From assembly GCA_022509045.1 (NCBI GenBank), contig JAFLTZ010000005.1, forward strand, positions 1 to 48,173: DNA of 48,173 nt. The letters are read 5' to 3'. Positions 27,934 to 39,762 of this stretch are shown piece by piece. The DNA comes from Muribaculaceae bacterium (GTDB lineage: Bacteria; Bacteroidota; Bacteroidia; Bacteroidales; Muribaculaceae). Under the pieces are notes generated by a model. It had not been told where the DNA came from. It worked only from the letters and a program-made list of their open reading frames with translations, and ran no database searches. The position numbers were made by a program, and so were the translations under genes. The first letter of the stretch is position 1. Every line of letters begins with the position of its first letter.

Positions 27934-28728
27934 CTAAATAATATCAATATTGGTCTTGTTTATCCATGCTCGGTGTGTGTCGTCGGCTTTAACGTCAAAC
28001 CATACATTTTCAATATCTCCGGATTTTGTCACAACAGAATCGAGAATGTAAATTTTTGTTCCTTCATTCAGAATAAATGCTTCCTCACTCTTGTCTTTTG
28101 GTACGCGTGGTGAGGTGCTTAACGTAGCTGACGATACAGTGATTATGGCATAGCGCTTTTGTGAAATCTTTTTATAAGATTTGTATGCAAAACAATTTGT
28201 AAAAATGGTCAGAATAAGCAATACAATACCCCCAAAGAATCCTATTTTACGAAACAAAACATTGCCTGAGAATACGTAAATAGCAATTGCGCTCAACATT
28301 AATATAAACAAGACGATTGCGGTTGTTGCCCACGCATTAGATGACATGGTGTTAATAATTGAGTTTATCATTTGACCGATTATGTTTGTTTCATCAACGT
28401 TTGTATTATCGGTAATGCGATTGTTTACAAATTCGAGATTCTGCCGAGCGTAATCATTAGCAGGATTGATGTTAAGTGCCCTTTCGTAATATAGAATAGC
28501 TTTGCCATTTTTCCCCATACGATAATAGCAATTTCCAATATTGTAAAATAAATCGCTTGAGATGCCTTCCTCCTCTGCCGCTTGCAAATATAATGACAGA
28601 GCTTCAGAATAGTTGTCGGCAGTATATGCCTTTTCAGCTTGTTCTATAAGAGACTGCGCTTGAACATGTAGCGAAACAATTGATATTGTCAACGCAACCA
28701 ATATGTTACATATAGTAGTTTTCATCAT
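27934..28728 (-). CDS. batE: BatE-type TPR/SH3 protein
   Basis: The last gene of the bat operon. The 264-aa protein has a signal peptide, a TPR array (about 30-100, including YYRMGKNGKAILYYERAL and NPANDYARQNLEFV), one or two membrane segments near the middle (about 135-190) and a C-terminal SH3-like domain ending in HRAWINKTN. BatE is assigned by operon position and domain order. The ATG overlaps the batD stop in an ATGATGA arrangement. Confidence 0.88.
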   Translation of the reverse strand: MMKTTICNILVALTISIVSLHVQAQSLIEQAEKAYTADNYSEALSLYLQAAEEEGISSDLFYNIGNCYYRMGKNGKAILYYERALNINPANDYARQNLEFVNNRITDNTNVDETNIIGQMINSIINTMSSNAWATTAIVLFILMLSAIAIYVFSGNVLFRKIGFFGGIVLLILTIFTNCFAYKSYKKISQKRYAIITVSSATLSTSPRVPKDKSEEAFILNEGTKIYILDSVVTKSGDIENVWFDVKADDTHRAWINKTNIDII

Positions 28729-30572
28729 TTCTTTTTAGTATTTTCCAATTTATCCATAACGTCACTTGCTTGCTCATAAATACTTTCCATCTGATCATTC
28801 GATTGTGACGGAGCATATTGAGCAAATTCGCATTCATCCAAAATATTGATTATCTGAGACGTGAGTTCCTGTGATGCGCCATAATTCAGTAGCTCGGTTT
28901 CAATATTCTCTTTGTTAAGTCCGGACACAGGGATGTGTAGTTTATCACTCAAATATCCCCAAATGGCTTTCAACATTTCCGCATAGAAAGCATTGTTATT
29001 GCCGGATTCCATATATGTCTTTGCTGTCTTGAGTCGTTTTTTCGCAATTTTACCTGCTTTCTTGGTGCGCATTAGCTGTACGTTAGATCTATTCTTCAAA
29101 GTCTTACGATACGCAAACATAATAACGCATAAGATAAGAGTCGGTATAATATACCATAACCAATAGGTCGAAGATGATACAATTAATTTATGCGATTTGG
29201 TTAGATATAGATTTCCTGTGCGTATGTGCAAGATGTCTTTATTTTTCTCTACGATATCCGATTTGTTGATTGCAACAGAGGAAGTCGAAGCAGAGGCTGT
29301 GCCTTTTTCTACACTAACATTTGATTCGGTAGTGGATAAAGTAACATATTTCTTTGAAGCTGTATCGAAATATGAAAATTCTATTGCCGGAATTTTATAT
29401 TGCCCATCATATTGTGGGATGAAAGTGTATTCCCATTTTTGAGTACCTGTCATGTTGTTGCCGGATATCGATACATTATTTGTGTTTTGAGGATCATAAA
29501 CCTCAAATTGCGATGGGAAGTCAATGGAAGGAGCGGTAATGAATTTGATATTTCCGGTTCCGCTTATTGATAAAGTATAGGTAGCCGCCTCATTCGTTTT
29601 AAACTTATCGGTGTTTAATTTGCCTGCAATCTTGAAATTGCCTACCGCACCGGTAAATGAGTTCGGTTTTGGCGTAGGTAATGGTGTTACGTTAAGCGAA
29701 GCTTGATTTGATTGTACTTTGATTTGTTTTTCGACCGGGGTGCGTATCATGCCGAAGAACGAATTTGCTTCTTCATACTGAATAACCGCTACATCGTAGC
29801 TACCGGATGTGATGGTAAGTTGTCCGGATTGTTGCGGATATAGGATGTATTTGCGTAGTTCAGCAACCATATAGTTTTGCCCATTATAGTGCTCAATTTC
29901 ATTTAAGTTGGCATTGTTGGGCATTTCTTCTATTAAAAATCCATTGAACGATGGTTGTTGAGTGCTCATGAAAGAGCTAATCTGGTATTTTGTGTATAGC
30001 TTTATTGAGCAGATAAGTGCTTCTTGTTCATATACATGAGATTTGCTTAAATTGATTCGTACGAAAATATCGTTGGCTGTAACTGCTTGTCCGGCTCTTT
30101 GACTGTTCACGTTGTCAATCTGCACGGATTGGGATTGGTTGCCGCTATTTTGAGCTGATTGGTCGGGTGGCAATATTTCGATGGAAAATGATTTGCTTTT
30201 CATCGCTTTGCCATCAACCATAACAGTGGCAGGTTCTACCGTATATTTCCCTGCTTTTACAGCACGATATGTATATGTGTATTGTTGGGTGTAGGAACTT
30301 GTGGTTTTACCGTTTCTGATTTCCATGCTTCGCGAAGTGCTCGTGGCAGGACCGTAAAGAAGGGTAGCACCCTCGATTTCAGCAGCCTTGATGCTTGAAC
30401 CTTCGGCATTCTGCAGAATATATGATATCTTAAACTGGTTTCCTTCAACTACTTGTCGAGGAGCATTGACCGTAAATGACACATCGGAAGCATGTGCGGG
30501 TGTTACGCATGCAACAAATGCTATTAGTAAAAGTTTTACAATTGATGCTTTATATAAGTATATACTTCTCAT
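28725..30572 (-). CDS. batD: BatD, large envelope protein of the bat operon
   Basis: BatD proteins have a signal peptide, several immunoglobulin-like beta domains in the periplasm, a C-terminal membrane helix and a cytoplasmic helical tail. This 615-aa copy fits: signal ending in AHASD, FTVNAPRQVVEGNQFKISY as the family's opening strand, a membrane helix near residues 470-490, and a charged C terminus with ANAFYAEMLKAI-like helices. The function is linked to envelope stress and oxygen tolerance in Bacteroides fragilis. It overlaps batE by 4 bp. Confidence 0.92.
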   Translation of the reverse strand: MRSIYLYKASIVKLLLIAFVACVTPAHASDVSFTVNAPRQVVEGNQFKISYILQNAEGSSIKAAEIEGATLLYGPATSTSRSMEIRNGKTTSSYTQQYTYTYRAVKAGKYTVEPATVMVDGKAMKSKSFSIEILPPDQSAQNSGNQSQSVQIDNVNSQRAGQAVTANDIFVRINLSKSHVYEQEALICSIKLYTKYQISSFMSTQQPSFNGFLIEEMPNNANLNEIEHYNGQNYMVAELRKYILYPQQSGQLTITSGSYDVAVIQYEEANSFFGMIRTPVEKQIKVQSNQASLNVTPLPTPKPNSFTGAVGNFKIAGKLNTDKFKTNEAATYTLSISGTGNIKFITAPSIDFPSQFEVYDPQNTNNVSISGNNMTGTQKWEYTFIPQYDGQYKIPAIEFSYFDTASKKYVTLSTTESNVSVEKGTASASTSSVAINKSDIVEKNKDILHIRTGNLYLTKSHKLIVSSSTYWLWYIIPTLILCVIMFAYRKTLKNRSNVQLMRTKKAGKIAKKRLKTAKTYMESGNNNAFYAEMLKAIWGYLSDKLHIPVSGLNKENIETELLNYGASQELTSQIINILDECEFAQYAPSQSNDQMESIYEQASDVMDKLENTKKK

Positions 30573-30594
30573 TTCAGATTGACGAAATTATATA

Positions 30595-31410
30595 TTACCA
30601 CTGGTTTTTAATCCTTACGCGTTGTTGTTCTTGTTCTTTGGCTTTTTGAGCATTTACTTTTTGCTGAGTAGTTCGCTCATTGTTTTGTACGGCATTCAAG
30701 ATTTGTTCAGAATTGTCGGGAGCTGCAGATTGTTGCTGCTGTTGCTGCCGGTCGTCATTCTTTTGTTCTTGATTTTGGTTTTGATTCTGATTATCTTGTT
30801 GCTGTTCTTGATTGTCCTGCTGTTGCTGTTGTTGCTCCTGTTGTTCTTGTTTTTGATCTTGTTTGTTGTCCTCTTCTTGATTTTGGTCTTGATTTTGGAG
30901 CATTTTCTGAGCCAATCTCAAATTATCACGAGCTTCATCATCGTTTGGATTGATACGCAACGTATTTTTATACATTTCGATGCTTTGTTCATATTGTTGG
31001 CTGTTAAACGCAATATTTCCAAGATTGTAAAACGCTTTTGATAAAAGCGGGCGATTTTTGCTAATTGATACGAGATTTTTCAGAATTGAATCTGCCTGAT
31101 GTGTGGTGCTTGCCGGATTTTGTGGATTATCATCAGGACCGGCTTGCCGGATGAGAGCCAATGCAAGATTATATTGCCCTATTTCGGAGTCGGCATTTGC
31201 AGCTATGGCTTGTCGATATTTCACTTCAGCGTCAACATAGTTTTTTTTGGAATAAGATTTATTGCCTTCACGTATCAAATTCCGCTCATCGTGTGTGGTT
31301 GGCACCAGGACGCTTACGGGCATATCTTGTGAGAATATATCCACCGGAAAGACGGTTGATATCAGTGCCAAAAGTGCAAATTTCAGAATGTTAATATAAA
31401 ATTTATGCAT
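30595..31410 (-). CDS. batC: BatC, TPR protein with a glutamine-rich tail
   Basis: A 271-aa exported TPR protein. After the signal peptide come TPR units (YSKKNYVDAEVKYRQAI; YNLGNIAFNSQQYEQSIEMY; RINPNDDEARDNLRLA) and then a long Gln/Asp/Asn/Glu low-complexity tail (about residues 165-255) that ends in basic residues. TPRs probably scaffold the VWA proteins BatA and BatB. The 5' end overlaps batB by 8 bp; batD starts 22 bp on. The repetitive tail is a likely hotspot for length change. Confidence 0.9.
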   Translation of the reverse strand: MHKFYINILKFALLALISTVFPVDIFSQDMPVSVLVPTTHDERNLIREGNKSYSKKNYVDAEVKYRQAIAANADSEIGQYNLALALIRQAGPDDNPQNPASTTHQADSILKNLVSISKNRPLLSKAFYNLGNIAFNSQQYEQSIEMYKNTLRINPNDDEARDNLRLAQKMLQNQDQNQEEDNKQDQKQEQQEQQQQQQDNQEQQQDNQNQNQNQEQKNDDRQQQQQQSAAPDNSEQILNAVQNNERTTQQKVNAQKAKEQEQQRVRIKNQW

Positions 31411-32458
31411 TGTTTTGATTTTCAGTTTTAGTGGAGAAGAATGTTATATTCTTGAGCCAAGAGATTTTACTTTCAAGTATAAATATTTCAGCGATAAGGA
31501 GGAACAAGGCAATCCAAGCGAAAATAGGGAATTGCTCATTATGCTTGCTGTAAACAACCTTTTCCATATCGGATTTCGCAAGCGATTTGAGTTGATTGTC
31601 AATTACATTCACAGCGTTGTTATCATTGCCTGAAACATAAATTCCACCTCCGGATTGAGCAATATTCTGAGCCATTTCCTCATTCAAATAAGTGGTTACC
31701 GGTTGCCCGTTTTCATCTTTCAGAAAAGCTCCAGGTCCGCCAAGAGGTATGGGTGCTCCTTTAGTAGAGCCTACTCCAATCACATTTATTTGAATCCCAC
31801 GTTTTTGAGCTTCTTTTGCCATACCTATAGCATCGTCCTCATGGTTTTCACCATCGGTGATTACAATAATGGTTTTTTGAGACTCTTCGTTGGGGGTGAA
31901 TGAATTCATGGCTAATTTTATAGCAGCCCCTATTGCGGTTCCCTGTGTAGATACCATGTTTGTGTTTATGCTGCTCAAAAACATCTTTGCTGAAACAAAA
32001 TCAGATGTTATGGGAAGTTGTGTATAGGCATTTCCGGCAAATACTATGAGCCCAACTTTGTCGTTGTCGAGTTTGTTGATGAGTTTTTCGAGCATCAATT
32101 TCGATTTTTGCAGGCGCGACACACTTGATGACTGGTCGGTAGAAGATGCGAGCATGGAATTTGAAACATCGAGTGCAATCATAACTTCAATACCCTTGAC
32201 TTGCACAATTTCTTCTTTAGAGCCGGCACGCGGGCGCACAATAATTATTATTATCATAAGGAGAGCCAGCAATAGCACTGTAATTCTTATCCATGGCTTG
32301 TATTTCGATACTTCCGGCATCAATGGTGCGAGTATCGAGATATCTCCATAGCGGTTCAGCGCTTTTTTGCGAGCGAATCGTGCAAATAAAAACAACAAAA
32401 ATGCTGCAGGTATAAGCACGAGTAAATATAGAGCTTGCGGATTAGCTAAACTAAACAT
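31403..32458 (-). CDS. batB: BatB, VWA-domain membrane protein
   Basis: A 351-aa protein with two N-terminal membrane segments, a von Willebrand A domain with an intact metal site (LDVSNSMLAS; TDGENHEDD) and a C-terminal membrane helix (FPIFAWIALFLLIAEIFIL region). The VWA domain should lie in the periplasm and bind a partner through a divalent cation. BatB is assigned because it is the second tandem VWA gene. It starts 34 bp after batA. Confidence 0.92.
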   Translation of the reverse strand: MFSLANPQALYLLVLIPAAFLLFLFARFARKKALNRYGDISILAPLMPEVSKYKPWIRITVLLLALLMIIIIIVRPRAGSKEEIVQVKGIEVMIALDVSNSMLASSTDQSSSVSRLQKSKLMLEKLINKLDNDKVGLIVFAGNAYTQLPITSDFVSAKMFLSSINTNMVSTQGTAIGAAIKLAMNSFTPNEESQKTIIVITDGENHEDDAIGMAKEAQKRGIQINVIGVGSTKGAPIPLGGPGAFLKDENGQPVTTYLNEEMAQNIAQSGGGIYVSGNDNNAVNVIDNQLKSLAKSDMEKVVYSKHNEQFPIFAWIALFLLIAEIFILESKISWLKNITFFSTKTENQNNA

Positions 32459-32492
32459 ATTTAATTTTTATAAGTCTTTTTTACAAATCATA

Positions 32493-33482
32493 TTATGGTA
32501 TGGTGCGCAATATTGTATAGCGAGCTAACAATTCTACACACAGTAAAAGTAGTAGTATCACTGCCCACGGCATGTAGTTGTCTTCCGTTTTGGAGTATTG
32601 CTTCACATCCATCTGAGTTTTTTCGAGTTTGTCAATTTCTTCAAATATTGCCTTGAGGGTGTTTTTATCAGTGGCTCTGAAATATACTCCACCGGTAACG
32701 GCAGCTATTTTTTTGAGAGTTACTTCGTCAATCACAACCGGCATCCGTTGATATTCCATTTGACCATACATGTTTATACCCACAGGAAACTCGGCTTCGC
32801 CGTTTGTGCCAACACCAATTGTATATACTTTGATACCCAATTTTTTTGCTATCTCAGCGGCGGTTAGCGGCGCCACCGTCCCGGTGTTGTTAGAACCATC
32901 GGTGAGCAAAATGATACTTTTTGATTTTGCTTTGCCGTCTTTTATCCTATTTATTGCGGTAGCAATACCATCACCTATGGCAGTGCCATCCTCCAGCATA
33001 TTCATTGATATTTCCTGAATATAGTTTGACAACACAGCTTTATCAGTAGTCATAGGAACGAGGGTGAAACTTTCACCTGCAAATATCACAATGCCTATAT
33101 TATCTGTTTCTCTGCCGATTACAAATTTTGCGGCAACATCTTTAGCAGCTTCAAACCGGTTAGGGCGGAAATCTCGTGCAAGCATACTTGACGATACGTC
33201 CATAGATATTACTATATCAGTACCTTCAGTTTCCGATGTCTGCCAGCTGTCGCGAGTTTGCGGTCGGCAAAGGATGATAATAAGGCATCCGATAGCCACA
33301 AGCCGCATAATAAACAATCCATGACGCAAATACACCTTCCACGATGTGCCTCTCTTATCGAACGGCAGGGTAGAAGATACGGTTATTGTTGGGTCGGCCT
33401 TTTTATATTTCAGAATATACCAGGCTATAATTGGTATATATACTATAAAGAGCCAAAGTAATTCAGGATTAGCTAATATCAT
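32493..33482 (-). CDS. batA: BatA, VWA-domain membrane protein
   Basis: A 329-aa protein with N-terminal membrane segments, a VWA domain with MIDAS residues in MDVSSSMLARD and LLTDGSNNTG, and a C-terminal membrane helix (WAVILLLLLCVELLARYTIL). It is paired with batB in the usual order. BatA and BatB are thought to form a complex with the other Bat proteins under control of the MoxR ATPase. Its start overlaps the preceding gene by 4 bp. Confidence 0.93.
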   Translation of the reverse strand: MILANPELLWLFIVYIPIIAWYILKYKKADPTITVSSTLPFDKRGTSWKVYLRHGLFIMRLVAIGCLIIILCRPQTRDSWQTSETEGTDIVISMDVSSSMLARDFRPNRFEAAKDVAAKFVIGRETDNIGIVIFAGESFTLVPMTTDKAVLSNYIQEISMNMLEDGTAIGDGIATAINRIKDGKAKSKSIILLTDGSNNTGTVAPLTAAEIAKKLGIKVYTIGVGTNGEAEFPVGINMYGQMEYQRMPVVIDEVTLKKIAAVTGGVYFRATDKNTLKAIFEEIDKLEKTQMDVKQYSKTEDNYMPWAVILLLLLCVELLARYTILRTIP

Positions 33483-34531
33483 AAGTCACCTGTTTGTTTT
33501 TCTTGTGATACATTTGGTTGTGCATCCGACTCAGGAGAAACCTTTCCGGTAGTTGCTTCATCGGCAACAACTTCCGGTTCAGGTTTTGTATCGTTCACAA
33601 ATTTTTCTGCACGATTCCATGATGCTTCATTATCATCGGGGAGAGGACGCATATTAGCGAATTTTACAAAATCTGCTATTTCAAGAATCTGTTTCATCTG
33701 TTGATTCACAGCTCTTGTCTCCTCGTTTCTTTTCAATGTGTCAATGATTTGAGTTGTGGTCATTTCCACTGCATTAATTCCGAATCTGCGGTCGATATAT
33801 CGACGGAGAATATCTGTAAGGCGAGTGTAATATTCTTTATCCTGTCCGGCTTGCCACAATTTTGCGGCTTTCAAAGCGCCAAGTGCTTCAATAGCTTCTT
33901 CATATGGTGGCAGGAGTGGTATTTCTGATAACACTTCGGTTTCATTGGGTTTTCTGCGTGTGAAATAATAACAGCACCCGGCGATTATCAATAATATAAC
34001 GAGCAGTATGTATTTCCAATAATAGTAAATGAAGTCCGGTATGAAATCGAAAGGATTAAACGGCACTCCTTCTTTATCTTTGAATCCGTGTATAGTAGCA
34101 AGTGAATCTACATCTACAGGAATAACTTTCAATGCCAATTCATTAGAGAAAACAGTATCTTTCCCGATTATATATTTTGCTGCCGGTATTTCCCAAATAC
34201 CAGAGTCAAAAGCCTGGATAATAAGTGACTTGTGAATTTCCTCCCGGTCATTTTTCAAATCGGTAGTGTCATTGTCCTTGATGAGGGCAATTTCGACGTG
34301 AGGAGCCAATTCGCGAGGATTGTCGATTTCTATAATGCCGTCAACACCCTTATCCTGAATGATTTGATAATGCAAAACAGTCTGTTTGCCCATCAAGATT
34401 ACTAAAGAATCGATGCTGGCATTAAAAGTCACATTGGGTTGCGCGCTGATATTTCCGCATATTCCGAATGTGAAAGCGGTAAATATAGCTGAAGTCGTGA
34501 TTTTTCGTATTATGGATTTAATCTTTATCAT
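33479..34531 (-). CDS. Bat-operon membrane protein of unknown function
   Basis: A 350-aa protein that sits between the DUF58 gene and batA, as in other Bacteroidales bat clusters. It has a signal peptide ending near ISAQP, a periplasmic beta-rich part (about 32-165), one membrane helix (about 172-190, YILLVILLIIAGCCYYF) and a cytoplasmic helical region containing RLTDILRRYIDRRFGI. The order resembles a small BatD or DUF4381-like protein. It overlaps both neighbours by 4 bp, so translation is coupled. The specific role is unknown. Confidence 0.82.
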   Translation of the reverse strand: MIKIKSIIRKITTSAIFTAFTFGICGNISAQPNVTFNASIDSLVILMGKQTVLHYQIIQDKGVDGIIEIDNPRELAPHVEIALIKDNDTTDLKNDREEIHKSLIIQAFDSGIWEIPAAKYIIGKDTVFSNELALKVIPVDVDSLATIHGFKDKEGVPFNPFDFIPDFIYYYWKYILLVILLIIAGCCYYFTRRKPNETEVLSEIPLLPPYEEAIEALGALKAAKLWQAGQDKEYYTRLTDILRRYIDRRFGINAVEMTTTQIIDTLKRNEETRAVNQQMKQILEIADFVKFANMRPLPDDNEASWNRAEKFVNDTKPEPEVVADEATTGKVSPESDAQPNVSQEKQTGDL

Positions 34532-35403
34532 TTTATACCGCGTTTTTTAAAGAGGCTCATAAGAGCTTTCACATAATCTTCGTCGGTGGCAATCGAAGCA
34601 ATCTCCACATTGCATCGTTGTGCTGTTATGTTCATATTTAACTGGCGTTCATACCACCATTTATTATATGATTTCCTGACAGCAGCCGATGAAGTATCTA
34701 TCCATTTATCGGTTCCGCGTTCGGCATCAGTCATTTTTACCAACCCGACATCGGGCAAACTCGTTTCTCGCTTGTCATATACTTGAATTGCAGTAACATC
34801 GTGTTTGCGGTTGGCTATCGAAAGAGGCTGGTAAAAATCCTTAGCATCGATAAAATCAGAAATCAGGAAAGTGGTACAGCGTTTTTTAAGTGCTGTGGTG
34901 AGATATTCCAGTACATTACCAATATCGGTGTTGGTGCTTTCCGGAGTAAAATCAAGCAATTCTCTGATAATGTGCAATATGTGCTTGCGGCCTTTCTTCG
35001 GGGGCATAAATTTTTCAATTTTGTCTGAGAAGAAAATCACACCGATTTTATCATTGTTTTGAATTGCTGAAAAAGCTATTGTTGCGGCAATTTCTGCCAT
35101 CATCTGTTGCTTTGATTCGCCGGTGGCTCCGAAAATGCGGCTCCGCGACACATCCACCAAAAGCATTACAGTGAGTTCTCGCTCTTCCTCATATACTTTC
35201 ACATACGGATGGTTTTGGCGAGCCGTCACATTCCAGTCAATGTCGCGTACATCATCGCCATATTGATATTCCCGCACCTCCGAGAAAGTCATACCCCTCC
35301 CTTTGAAAGCAGAGTGATACTCACCCGCAAAAATGTTTTGCGAGAGTCCGCGAGTTTTTATCTCAATTAATCTTACTTTTCTTAGTAATTCGTTGGCATC
35401 CAT
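34528..35403 (-). CDS. DUF58-domain protein of the MoxR/Bat cluster
   Basis: A 291-aa soluble DUF58 protein with the family hallmark GDDVRDIDW near residue 50 and a VWA-like core whose first metal motif DVSRS follows LTVMLLV. DUF58 proteins almost always sit next to MoxR ATPases and probably are their direct partners. It starts 60 bp after moxR and overlaps the next gene by 4 bp. No membrane segment is present, unlike longer DUF58 forms. Confidence 0.93.
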   Translation of the reverse strand: MDANELLRKVRLIEIKTRGLSQNIFAGEYHSAFKGRGMTFSEVREYQYGDDVRDIDWNVTARQNHPYVKVYEEERELTVMLLVDVSRSRIFGATGESKQQMMAEIAATIAFSAIQNNDKIGVIFFSDKIEKFMPPKKGRKHILHIIRELLDFTPESTNTDIGNVLEYLTTALKKRCTTFLISDFIDAKDFYQPLSIANRKHDVTAIQVYDKRETSLPDVGLVKMTDAERGTDKWIDTSSAAVRKSYNKWWYERQLNMNITAQRCNVEIASIATDEDYVKALMSLFKKRGIK

Positions 35404-35463: not shown

Positions 35464-36459
35464 CTAAGGCACAGCAATTTTGTCGAGGATTTCGCTTACG
35501 ATTTCATCGGCATCAATGTTGTTGGCTTCAGCTTCGTAGCTGAGACCGATACGGTGGCGAAGCACGTCGTGGGCCACAGCACGCACATCTTCAGGAATTA
35601 CGTATCCGCGACCTTTTAAGAATGCAAACGCGCGGGCAGCAACGGCAAGCGATATCGATGCACGTGGCGATGCTCCAAATGATATAATGCTGCTCAAGTC
35701 GCTCAATCCGCAGTCGGCGGGGAAGCGTGTGGCAAACACTATATCCACTATATATTTCTCTATCTTTTCGTCAATGTAGATTTTCTTGACTATTTCACGT
35801 AGCTCAAGAATTTCGTTCGTGCTTACAAGTGCATTGATTTGGCGAGCTGCATCCTGAATATTTTGGCGGATAATGAGCTTTTCTTCTTCTTTGTTTGGAT
35901 ATCCGATAACCACTTTCATAAGGAAACGGTCCACTTGTGCTTCCGGAAGAGGATATGTTCCTTCTTGTTCGATTGGGTTTTGGGTTGCCATCACAAGGAA
36001 AGGTTTATCAAGTTGGAAAGTGGTATCGCCAATTGTTACCTGGCGTTCCTGCATGGCTTCGAGTAAAGCACTCTGCACCTTTGCCGGAGCACGGTTGATT
36101 TCATCGGCAAGTACGAAATTTGCAAATACCGGTCCTTTTTTTACTTCAAATTTTTCTTTTTGAACGCTATAAACCATTGTACCAATCACATCGGCAGGGA
36201 GTAAGTCGGGAGTAAATTGGATACGGCTGTATTTTGCATCGATAAGTTGAGCCAATGTCTTTATTGCAAGTGTCTTTGCCAATCCAGGCACACCTTCGAG
36301 CAGAATATGACCGTCGGCAAGAAGAGCTATCAATAGTGAATCTACAAGATGCTTTTGCCCTACGATGGTTTGGTCCATTCCTTGTGTGATTATTTTCACA
36401 AATCCGCTTTTACTTTCAATGAGGTTGTTCAACTCTCGAATGTTTACTGCTTCACTCAT
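35464..36459 (-). CDS. moxR: MoxR-family AAA+ ATPase
   Basis: The first gene of the bat operon. The 331-aa AAA+ protein has Walker A GVPGLAKT (about 56-63), Walker B LADEINRAPAKVQSALLEAM, sensor 1 ATQNPIEQEGTYPLPEAQVD, and an arginine-containing lid domain. MoxR ATPases act as chaperone-like activators for VWA proteins, here probably BatA, BatB and the DUF58 protein. Length is normal. A -7 box lies about 57 bp upstream. Confidence 0.95.
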   Translation of the reverse strand: MSEAVNIRELNNLIESKSGFVKIITQGMDQTIVGQKHLVDSLLIALLADGHILLEGVPGLAKTLAIKTLAQLIDAKYSRIQFTPDLLPADVIGTMVYSVQKEKFEVKKGPVFANFVLADEINRAPAKVQSALLEAMQERQVTIGDTTFQLDKPFLVMATQNPIEQEGTYPLPEAQVDRFLMKVVIGYPNKEEEKLIIRQNIQDAARQINALVSTNEILELREIVKKIYIDEKIEKYIVDIVFATRFPADCGLSDLSSIISFGASPRASISLAVAARAFAFLKGRGYVIPEDVRAVAHDVLRHRIGLSYEAEANNIDADEIVSEILDKIAVP

Positions 36460-36625: not shown

Positions 36626-37708
36626 TTAATCGAATTGTTCCTTTATTTCGGCTGCAATTCTTTGGGCCTGAGCTATGCTGGCGCTGCTGTTTTTGTCTAT
36701 ACCGTATTTCTCGGCATCAGGAATCACAACCACTGTGCCGGGAGCTATATTATTGGGGTTGTTAATTATATTCTTGTTTTCCATATAGATATACACCCAA
36801 AAGTTGAAATTTCCGTAATATTTGCGAGCCATAGTGGTGAGGAAACGTGTGCGTCCCACTGTGTCGGTAACCACTGTGTTGTCGGTTTGCAGTTGCTGTG
36901 TGTCGATATTCGATTCACTGCTGATATTAGCTGTAATTGTGTCTGCGGCAGTGTCAATGTCTGTTGCAATAACTTCGGTGGAGGCTAAATTGTCCTTTAT
37001 CCCCGGGATATTGCCATCAAAATAAACCAGAGCTACATACGCTGCAGCGACTCCGAGAATAAATCCGCAAACAATGCCCCAAATTAGGTTGCGTTTGGAA
37101 TGGTTACAGTCCGAATCATCGTCGGTTTCGTATATTTCCGGATTATTATCTGTGTCGTGGACTTGTTCGGTTGGAACTTCCGGCTCTTCGGGCTGTTCGG
37201 TTGCTGCATCTTCCGACGGCACTGCTACCATTTCCTCGAGGTGCTCCGTAGGAGTTTCGATATTGTCGGGTACGATAGGAGTGGCAATGATTTCTTCGGT
37301 GTCAGTTGTATCCTGTCCCGACTCTTGAGCGGGAGGCTCCGGTGTTTGTTCATCGGTTTTGTCCGATAGCATTTCATCGGTAATCGAATCGTCGATTTCA
37401 ATAGTCTCAAATTCGGCAAATGCTGAATTCACAGCCTGAGCCATCGACTTTTCAACCGTTAATGTGACTTTGCGATAGCTTGGAATTTCAATTTCTTCAC
37501 CGGTGTTTACGTCAATGCTTTTACGGGCATCTACTACAACACATTTAAATACACCTAACCCGGCAATTTTTATGCTTTCATTGTTTAGCAGCGAAGTGAG
37601 CAGAGTGTCAATCAAATCTTTTATGAAAGATTCGCAAATTTTTTTCTGCATGCCGGTTGTTTCAGCCAGCATTTCTACTAATTCCGGTAAAGTAATTTTT
37701 TTATTCAT
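36626..37708 (-). CDS. HU-like domain fused to a transmembrane helix and LysM-like domain
   Basis: A 360-aa protein with three parts. Residues 1-100 form an HU/IHF-like DNA-binding domain (IKIAGLGVFKCVVVDARKSI; GEEIEIPSYRKVTL). Residues 100-205 are an acidic, Pro/Thr-rich linker. A single membrane helix (207-231, LIWGIVCGFILGVAAAYVAL) follows, and residues 285-331 form a LysM-like domain (ARKYYGNFNFWVYIYMENK; IAPGTVVVIPD). The HU part should be cytoplasmic and the LysM part periplasmic, which would allow contact with both DNA and peptidoglycan. Related HU-annotated proteins occur in Bacteroidetes; their role is not established. It starts 37 bp after a plain HU-like gene. Confidence 0.85.
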   Translation of the reverse strand: MNKKITLPELVEMLAETTGMQKKICESFIKDLIDTLLTSLLNNESIKIAGLGVFKCVVVDARKSIDVNTGEEIEIPSYRKVTLTVEKSMAQAVNSAFAEFETIEIDDSITDEMLSDKTDEQTPEPPAQESGQDTTDTEEIIATPIVPDNIETPTEHLEEMVAVPSEDAATEQPEEPEVPTEQVHDTDNNPEIYETDDDSDCNHSKRNLIWGIVCGFILGVAAAYVALVYFDGNIPGIKDNLASTEVIATDIDTAADTITANISSESNIDTQQLQTDNTVVTDTVGRTRFLTTMARKYYGNFNFWVYIYMENKNIINNPNNIAPGTVVVIPDAEKYGIDKNSSASIAQAQRIAAEIKEQFD

Positions 37709-37745
37709 TGTCAGGGTAGAGTAGCGGTTGATATGATATTAGTTT

Positions 37746-38024
37746 TTAATACTCGCGCAGTTGTTTTTTCAGTACGGAACTCATCTTAAAAGTGAGGACT
37801 ACCTTTGGAGGAATCAGAATGCGTTTGCCGGTAGAAGGGTGCACGGTTATTCTTTCCATTCGTTTGCGAGGCTCAAATGAGCCGAAACCGGGAATGGAAA
37901 TTGTGTTCATTGCGCTGCATTGATTCTTTATTACGGAAACAAAGCCGTTTAGGAGTGTTTCAGTGTCCTTTGATGAGCGACCGGAGCGGTCGGCAAGAGC
38001 TCGTATAAGTTGTTTACTATCCAT
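37746..38024 (-). CDS. HU-family DNA-binding protein
   Basis: A 92-aa single-domain protein of the HU/IHF type, with the dimerisation helices at the N terminus and the beta-arm region ISIPGFGSFEPRKRMERITVHP, then IPPKVVLTFK. It probably bends or compacts DNA as a dimer. It precedes the HU-LysM gene by 37 bp, and the two are probably co-transcribed. The nearest -7 box is only about ten bases before the ATG. Confidence 0.9.
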   Translation of the reverse strand: MDSKQLIRALADRSGRSSKDTETLLNGFVSVIKNQCSAMNTISIPGFGSFEPRKRMERITVHPSTGKRILIPPKVVLTFKMSSVLKKQLREY

Positions 38025-38094: not shown

Positions 38095-38132
38095 AACAAT
38101 CCCCAACCTTTTATCGAAGATTGGGGATTGTT
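38095..38132 (-). terminator. Terminator after the large lipoprotein gene
   Basis: AACAATCCCCAA (38095-38106) pairs with TTGGGGATTGTT (38121-38132), flanked by A- and T-rich runs. It is 23 bp past the stop codon of the minus-strand lipoprotein gene at 38155. Confidence 0.8.
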
Positions 38133-38154: not shown

Positions 38155-39762
38155 TTATCTTGATGGAGGTGTGAATTTGAATATCTTTACACCTGCCTGA
38201 CCGTATGCTACAGTTATTAGACGATCCGGGCATTTCCCTGTGTATGTATCTGTTTTATATACAGTAACGTAGTTGGCAGATGCATCACCTTCCTCGAATG
38301 CACTATATTCTGCTACTTTTTCAAGAGTTTTTCTATCAAGGATAGTGAGGCAAGCGCCATTAGCTACATATATGAACCCATCATTATAATTTTCAAGATC
38401 CTCAACGAAAACACCATTTACAGGACGAGAGCCAGTGCCATCTTTTTTGTCAGAGAATTTTATTGTTTTTTCAGATGGTCCGCTAATATATAGACCACCT
38501 TTACCTAAACACGCATATAATATGCCATTCAGATTAGCAAGAACATTCTTGCCATCAATTGGGCAAATATTTCCATCAGTTTTGAATTGATTTGTACCCA
38601 AAGACCATGTTGTAATGTCAAATCCGGATGTATTATATATAGCTGCTCCGCCACCACTGGTATTCATTCCACAGAGTGTACCATCACCAGCATTCATGCT
38701 GAAATTGATGATGCTTGCAGGAAGGGCTGTTTCTCCATCATATGTCTCTGGGAATGGCTGTGTCATATAAAGGAATGAAAAGCCGGATCCATAAACCGGA
38801 TAATAATGGCATAAATGTTTAGCAGAACCGGGAGTTCTCACAAAATAAGTGGTATTCTCGATAGGCTTATAGTCTTCAGTACTAACATTATTGATCGGTG
38901 AAAACAAGTCTTTATCATTTCTTGCATTCAGTACAGCAATACCTTTGCGTGTGGCAAGATAATAATAGTCATATTTTCTAAGCACGCAGTTAACATCTCC
39001 GGCATCTTCATCTCCAAGTGGCATAAGTGTACCATCGTCTTTAGTAACACTTTCATCAGTTATCTTTTCTCCTGTAAGCACTGTTGAATAGTCAATTTTT
39101 CCTTCTTCGAGATTTAATTTTGCTATGATAGCAGCTGTATTTGGCTCACCGCCTTCTTTTTTTGATGGCTCTGATTTGTGACCAACTGCAATAATACGAG
39201 TTCCATTGTCTGTACCTTTGTATACACCGCTGTTATCACTGTTGCTCAAATCATCGAAATATAAATGATTGAAGTCGAAATCTAACTTTGATGGGTCCTC
39301 AGACATATATACTTTATCTACTGTCGGCTTTCCTTCAGCGTCAAGAGTGAATGTTTCGATATAACCGGATGTCTCATCAGTTTGTTTTGTGTTGTAGTTG
39401 TTACCTTGCATGTGGTAAGTAACATAGTATTTACCTGTGTTTTTATCATAATAAACACAAGTTGCCGACAGGTAGCGACCATCGTTACCTTCTTTTTCGA
39501 ATCCTGTTATTTTGCCCTCTTTAGAAAGGTTGTCTATTGTAGCAAATAAGGTAAGTTCTCCAGGATTGGGGTACGCTCTCGTTCCGATAACGTTTACGCG
39601 GCTTTGTGAAGATTTGAAAGAAGCCAAGTTTGCTGTTTTCAAGGTTATTTGTTCAACATTTTCGTTGCCCAATTCATCACTGTTACCCGGTGTGATTGTA
39701 TCGTCGGAACAAGATGCAAGATACAATGCAAATGCCGGCAATAGATAAATTAATCTCTTCAT
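38155..39762 (-). CDS. Large surface or periplasmic lipoprotein, probably beta-propeller-like
   Basis: A 535-aa protein with a lipoprotein signal peptide (lipobox LASC, followed by SDD, which in Bacteroidetes favours surface export). The body has repeated beta-rich units with features such as GKYYVTYHMQGNNYN, NGTRIIAVGHKSEP, YYLATRKGIAVL, GLYISGPSEKT and DGFIYVANGACLTIL, which suggests a propeller of six or seven blades. I do not recognise a family. It is transcribed alone, between a terminator and its own upstream -7 boxes. Confidence 0.8.
   Translation of the reverse strand: MKRLIYLLPAFALYLASCSDDTITPGNSDELGNENVEQITLKTANLASFKSSQSRVNVIGTRAYPNPGELTLFATIDNLSKEGKITGFEKEGNDGRYLSATCVYYDKNTGKYYVTYHMQGNNYNTKQTDETSGYIETFTLDAEGKPTVDKVYMSEDPSKLDFDFNHLYFDDLSNSDNSGVYKGTDNGTRIIAVGHKSEPSKKEGGEPNTAAIIAKLNLEEGKIDYSTVLTGEKITDESVTKDDGTLMPLGDEDAGDVNCVLRKYDYYYLATRKGIAVLNARNDKDLFSPINNVSTEDYKPIENTTYFVRTPGSAKHLCHYYPVYGSGFSFLYMTQPFPETYDGETALPASIINFSMNAGDGTLCGMNTSGGGAAIYNTSGFDITTWSLGTNQFKTDGNICPIDGKNVLANLNGILYACLGKGGLYISGPSEKTIKFSDKKDGTGSRPVNGVFVEDLENYNDGFIYVANGACLTILDRKTLEKVAEYSAFEEGDASANYVTVYKTDTYTGKCPDRLITVAYGQAGVKIFKFTPPSR

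Follow-up and report, generated by a model that had tools for sequence, protein, structure and literature searches.

Proteins of the HU/IHF family grip DNA by two β-arms whose tip prolines intercalate, and HU domains of the CCDC81 type have been proposed to serve as protein–protein modules. A 2017 paper by Burroughs, Kaur, Zhang and Aravind (Cell Cycle 16:1093) is said to describe HU-CCDC81/TM/SPOR proteins of Bacteroidota. Paired subunits are found in the IHF αβ dimer and the HU αβ dimer of E. coli, and single-chain IHF unites such a pair in one polypeptide. In FimV, a related LysM has been shown to attach to peptidoglycan and to determine where the protein is located (PMC12918733). Here we compare with these systems a gene pair located in a window of 48,173 nucleotides, the whole stretch analysed, from the Muribaculaceae contig JAFLTZ010000005.1. 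The pair encodes a membrane-tethered HU-LysM protein of 360 residues (36626–37708), delimited from the list of open reading frames, Pfam, NCBIfam and its relatives, and a free HU-family protein of 92 residues (37746–38024); both lie on the minus strand, as do all other genes and protein segments of the window given below.

An earlier note on this DNA had read the longer protein as an HU/IHF-like domain, an acidic linker, a single membrane helix and a LysM-like domain, and each of these parts is confirmed. The HU domain (residues 5–96; 37421–37696) matches Pfam model PF00216 above the cut-off (2e-17, residues 8–94), and an AlphaFold2 model built from seven sequences gives residues 7–98 the two N-terminal helices, three strands and C-terminal helix of the HU fold, with an arm. 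Structural comparison of this part returns HU/IHF chains in both Foldseek (E about 1e-6) and VIA-align (Z 8–9); with the full model, only HU chains are among the best 50 Foldseek matches listed, and the LysM match came from VIA. Just C-terminal of the HU fold, residues 94–105 (37394–37429) carry the motif N-x-x-F-x-x-F-E, in which N94, F97 and F100 are invariant. This stretch has low confidence in the monomer model. Together with the LysM domain it is the best-conserved part of the tethered protein, and it is likely to be a contact site for the partner or a client. The acidic linker that follows (residues 106–205; 37094–37393) is unstructured and of low confidence in the model, and probably disordered. 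It leads into the single membrane helix (residues 207–230; 37019–37090), and exactly one hydrophobic segment is present in 60 of the 62 relatives checked. Basic residues (K-R) precede this helix, which by the positive-inside rule would place the HU domain inside and LysM outside, the topology that the note had put forward.

The C-terminal part has a LysM fold (residues 280–332; 36713–36871). It is matched by the LysM half of the NCBIfam protein model PRK11198 (residues 264–332, 6.7e-7), as are 30 of 32 relatives, and residues 280–329 are predicted as β-α-α-β with a pLDDT of about 90. It can be superposed on the LysM domain of Kbp from E. coli (VIA Z 8.0, 64 residues, 2.1 Å) and on a Kbp sensor structure (1.1 Å over 54 residues), and in a search of PDB sequences a family profile picks up IHF (4e-12) and Kbp (2e-10). 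The N-terminal motif of the family LysM is divergent, and the Pfam model PF01476 does not call the domain in the 360-residue protein; among 32 members it gives only one match, at E 0.03, and one relative reaches 0.003. Kbp (YgaU) is the closest solved LysM by both sequence and fold; it differs from the present protein in being a cytoplasmic BON-LysM protein known for potassium binding, and the LysM fold is therefore no proof of glycan binding. The same LysM subtype terminates a β-barrel/OmpA-like envelope protein (L111:4995–6626), which supports a periplasmic role for this type of LysM. Beyond LysM, the model ends in a further helix (residues 342–359; 36632–36685) that is kept in most Bacteroidales relatives.

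The free HU protein (PF00216, 1.2e-23) has a net charge of +10 and an arm tip, HPSTG, that includes the proline. The note had proposed it as a heterodimer partner and had called for the conservation of the pair to be examined in Bacteroidales. Among 62 loci of this order, the partner-type HU gene lies directly upstream of the tethered gene in all 56 unfused cases, and in the other six (L105, L107, L117, L122, L123 and L129, from four family groups) it forms the N-terminal part of the tethered protein, giving two successive HU domains followed by the membrane helix and LysM. One partner match, that of L044, is partial owing to the placement of the ORF start. In another class of the phylum the partner HU is upstream in 10 of 10 LysM-type loci. 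Furthermore, the partner and tethered frames overlap by 4, 8 or 11 bp in most Bacteroidales loci, a sign of translational coupling; at 36626–38024 the two genes are separated by 37 bases. Adjacency, frame overlap and fusion make a heterodimer, as in IHF, the natural reading, so that the two chains likely form one, and the fused proteins resemble a single-chain dimer. A genome with a split pair (L110) has in addition a degenerate copy in which tandem HU domains are followed by a K/E-rich linker of great length (L130:3324–5210).

The family comprises these 62 loci, which represent at least 20 family groups of Bacteroidales, and the 10 loci from the other class. A single-sequence search detected the protein in 39 of 60 near relatives; for the order as a whole, 247 genomes were searched with a profile and the loci were then read, and at least 20 of about 120 family groups proved to have the complete architecture. 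The relatives that bear names are MAGs assigned to Bacteroidales and Muribaculaceae. Outside the order, a class-level sample yielded no family member and suggested a restriction to Bacteroidales, which was overturned when a phylum-level sample found the family in another class. Two loci of SPOR type (L126 and L127), the OmpA-LysM locus L111 and the degenerate tandem copy L130 are not included in the counts. Since dozens of genomes share this architecture, a chance fusion or a frameshift artefact is ruled out. NCBIfam and Pfam contain no model describing the HU-TM-LysM family as such, and a literature search found no paper on an HU-TM-LysM protein, although the 2017 HU-CCDC81 paper, which is cited in PMC12218091, may mention LysM forms.

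Whether the pair contacts DNA was judged from its arms. The arm of the tethered HU (residues 55–82; 37463–37546), placed by alignment to E. coli HU-β, is of normal length (28 residues). Among the ten contact positions taken from E. coli HU-β (K3, K53, R55, R58, R61, P63, K67, R80, K83 and K86), it keeps only R58 (here R62) and K83; the tip proline P63 is replaced by V67, and the domain has a net charge of −1. The tip proline and most of the basic arm and saddle residues expected of a DNA-bending HU are lacking in the tethered chain and present in the partner, which keeps the P63 proline and most basic contact positions. Any grip of the pair on DNA would probably be supplied mostly by the partner. 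Across Bacteroidales, the tethered arm is full-length in 38 of the 62 loci, where it is conserved in length and sequence, and missing or shortened in 24, where the tethered HU part averages a net charge of −4.1; the tip proline is absent from nearly all tethered HUs of the order. In a model of one such arm-less HU the fold of the body is intact and lies within 1.4 Å of HU chains from the PDB. The partner changes along with the tethered arm: its R58 is kept in 37 of 38 loci with a full-length tethered arm versus 2 of 23 with a shortened or missing one, its P63 in 38 of 38 versus 8 of 23, and its mean net charge is +6.2 versus +0.2. Most of the 24 reduced-arm loci sit in one clade, and the tree requires at least six changes. 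Only three independent pairs have good support; all three point the same way (sign test p 0.25), and the evidence for a joint decay of the arm in the two subunits is thus suggestive, not conclusive. The situation is reversed in the other class, in that the tethered HU has the canonical tip NPQTG (GVNPQTGE) and the partner arm is divergent; arm-bearing pairs therefore always keep at least one proline tip. The same reversal relative to other Bacteroidales is seen in L124 and L125, where the tethered HU has a canonical GRNPxTG arm and the partner an odd one.

The note had further suggested that the tethered HU would bind DNA and could anchor the nucleoid, and for this part the case is weak. The arm is present; the tip proline and most DNA-contacting basic residues are not, and 24 of 62 relatives have lost or shortened the arm while keeping everything else. 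Arm loss on this scale means that whatever the family conserves can do without DNA binding, and its conserved core does not lie in nucleoid anchoring. For the pair at 36626–38024 a nucleoid anchor is plausible. We give a probability of roughly 55% to the following reading: the two genes would make a heterodimeric HU that spans the envelope by way of one subunit, with one chain free, basic and with a normal arm tip, and the other anchored in the inner membrane and continuing into a periplasmic LysM. The HU dimer would be cytoplasmic, leashed by the flexible acidic linker, and LysM would grip the glycan strands of peptidoglycan and so hold the dimer at the envelope. In this lineage, with both arms present and a strongly basic partner, the dimer most likely would still touch DNA and fasten a portion of the nucleoid to the wall; in several relatives, where arm features are lost in both chains, it most likely would only hold proteins. 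The safest statement is that of a two-subunit HU unit at the inner membrane which reaches into the wall. As a tentative evolutionary account, which we hold to be possible without favouring it, a conserved HU heterodimer across the envelope, present in two classes of Bacteroidota, would tie chromosomal DNA to peptidoglycan; its hold on DNA would have been lost several times, in parallel in the two subunits, with tether and partner retained, so that a nucleoid anchor became a pure protein scaffold.

The same arm data bear on a different proposal, that the HU dimer makes protein–protein contacts alone and that the pair is a wall-anchored cytoplasmic scaffold, which binds its client through N-x-x-F-x-x-F-E and no DNA even at this locus. 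The frequent loss of the arm with a net negative HU part, the near absence of the tip proline in Bacteroidales, the retained body fold of the arm-less HU and the strongest conservation falling on the post-HU motif and LysM would all fit such a scaffold. We nevertheless regard it as unlikely for the present pair, since the arm is maintained in length and sequence at 38 loci, the partner is basic with a proline tip exactly at those loci, and members of ancestral type in the other class have a canonical arm. 

The neighbourhood raises another alternative. Downstream lies a conserved gene for a MoxR-type AAA ATPase (35464–36459; PF07726, 5e-67), the first of a cluster whose remaining members (28725–35403), assigned by domain matches and comparison of neighbours, encode DUF58, BatA/BatB-like VWA, TPR and BatD proteins; in Bacteroides this set is known as the aerotolerance (Bat) operon. 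A membrane-bound regulator of ToxR/CadC layout, in which LysM senses wall fragments or the state of the wall while genes in the vicinity, for instance moxR-bat, are under the control of the HU dimer, would account for a DNA-binding-type domain inside, one membrane helix and a ligand-type domain outside, as well as for the conserved moxR-DUF58-bat neighbourhood. Against this, HU/IHF proteins rarely act as stand-alone regulators, arm-less members could not bind DNA, and the bat cluster is absent next door at many pair-bearing loci. In an initial comparison of 27 loci MoxR is present at 21, and it is absent from those of the other class, which implies that the HU pair either predates the bat linkage or does not depend on it. 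We consider a regulator very improbable. Slightly less probable still is a chromosome-partition or division factor at the pole or septum, a LysM counterpart of HU-TM-SPOR that would anchor the nucleoid only during segregation. The same genome does carry the SPOR counterpart, and in some contexts the pair follows likely ftsY and rimO genes (identified by eye); such a factor would, however, be a special case of the trans-envelope heterodimer rather than an exclusive alternative to it. A gene inserted upstream of the pair (38155–39762) encodes a 535-residue protein that begins like a lipoprotein and matches no Pfam model; it was not seen adjoining the pair in relatives. A terminator-like hairpin (38097–38123) lies upstream of the partner gene, behind this preceding gene, in a scan in which such sites were no more frequent than in shuffles.

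Little is known about how nucleoids are attached to the envelope, particularly in Bacteroidales of the gut, and a small conserved two-gene unit with a DNA-type domain inside and a wall-type domain outside is directly testable. Moreover, arm-bearing and arm-less lineages provide a natural experiment that can show if contact with DNA is what matters, and they indicate that annotation of an HU domain should not be read as DNA binding.

Among known systems, the nearest design is the tandem HU-TM-SPOR of the HU-CCDC81 proteins, in which cytoplasmic HU domains are likewise joined through an acidic linker and one membrane helix to a peptidoglycan-type domain outside, with tandem HU domains in one chain as in the fused HU-HU-TM-LysM relatives. 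They differ in that SPOR takes the place of LysM and the HU arms are absent. The 360-residue protein ends in LysM instead of SPOR, scores 17.9 of 35 bits with PF18175, the model of the second HU (below the cut-off), and does not match PF18174, that of the first HU. The same genome (G000) encodes a separate 315-residue tandem HU-CCDC81 protein with a membrane helix and a SPOR-like C-terminus (L152; C23:2303–3250), found through PF18174, a model present in 217 of the 247 genomes of the order. Membership in the HU-CCDC81 group is therefore ruled out, and the separate HU-SPOR and HU-LysM genes of one genome represent paralogous systems. The family shares with the IHF and HU αβ dimers and single-chain IHF the HU fold, paired subunits and natural single-chain versions; it departs from them in the tethering of one subunit to membrane and wall and in the degeneration or loss of the arms. 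The closest functional analogy would be the polar organisers HubP/FimV, in which LysM fixes a cytoplasmic organiser to peptidoglycan and which also combine an outside LysM with one membrane helix, a long acidic cytoplasmic region and a client-binding cytoplasmic end (PMC12918733). In HubP/FimV, however, the chain order is reversed, a signal peptide is present, a TPR/FimV domain stands in place of HU and there is no HU partner gene, whereas the present protein begins with HU and has no TPR match. Overall, the HU-TM-LysM pair belongs to neither HubP/FimV nor HU-TM-SPOR.
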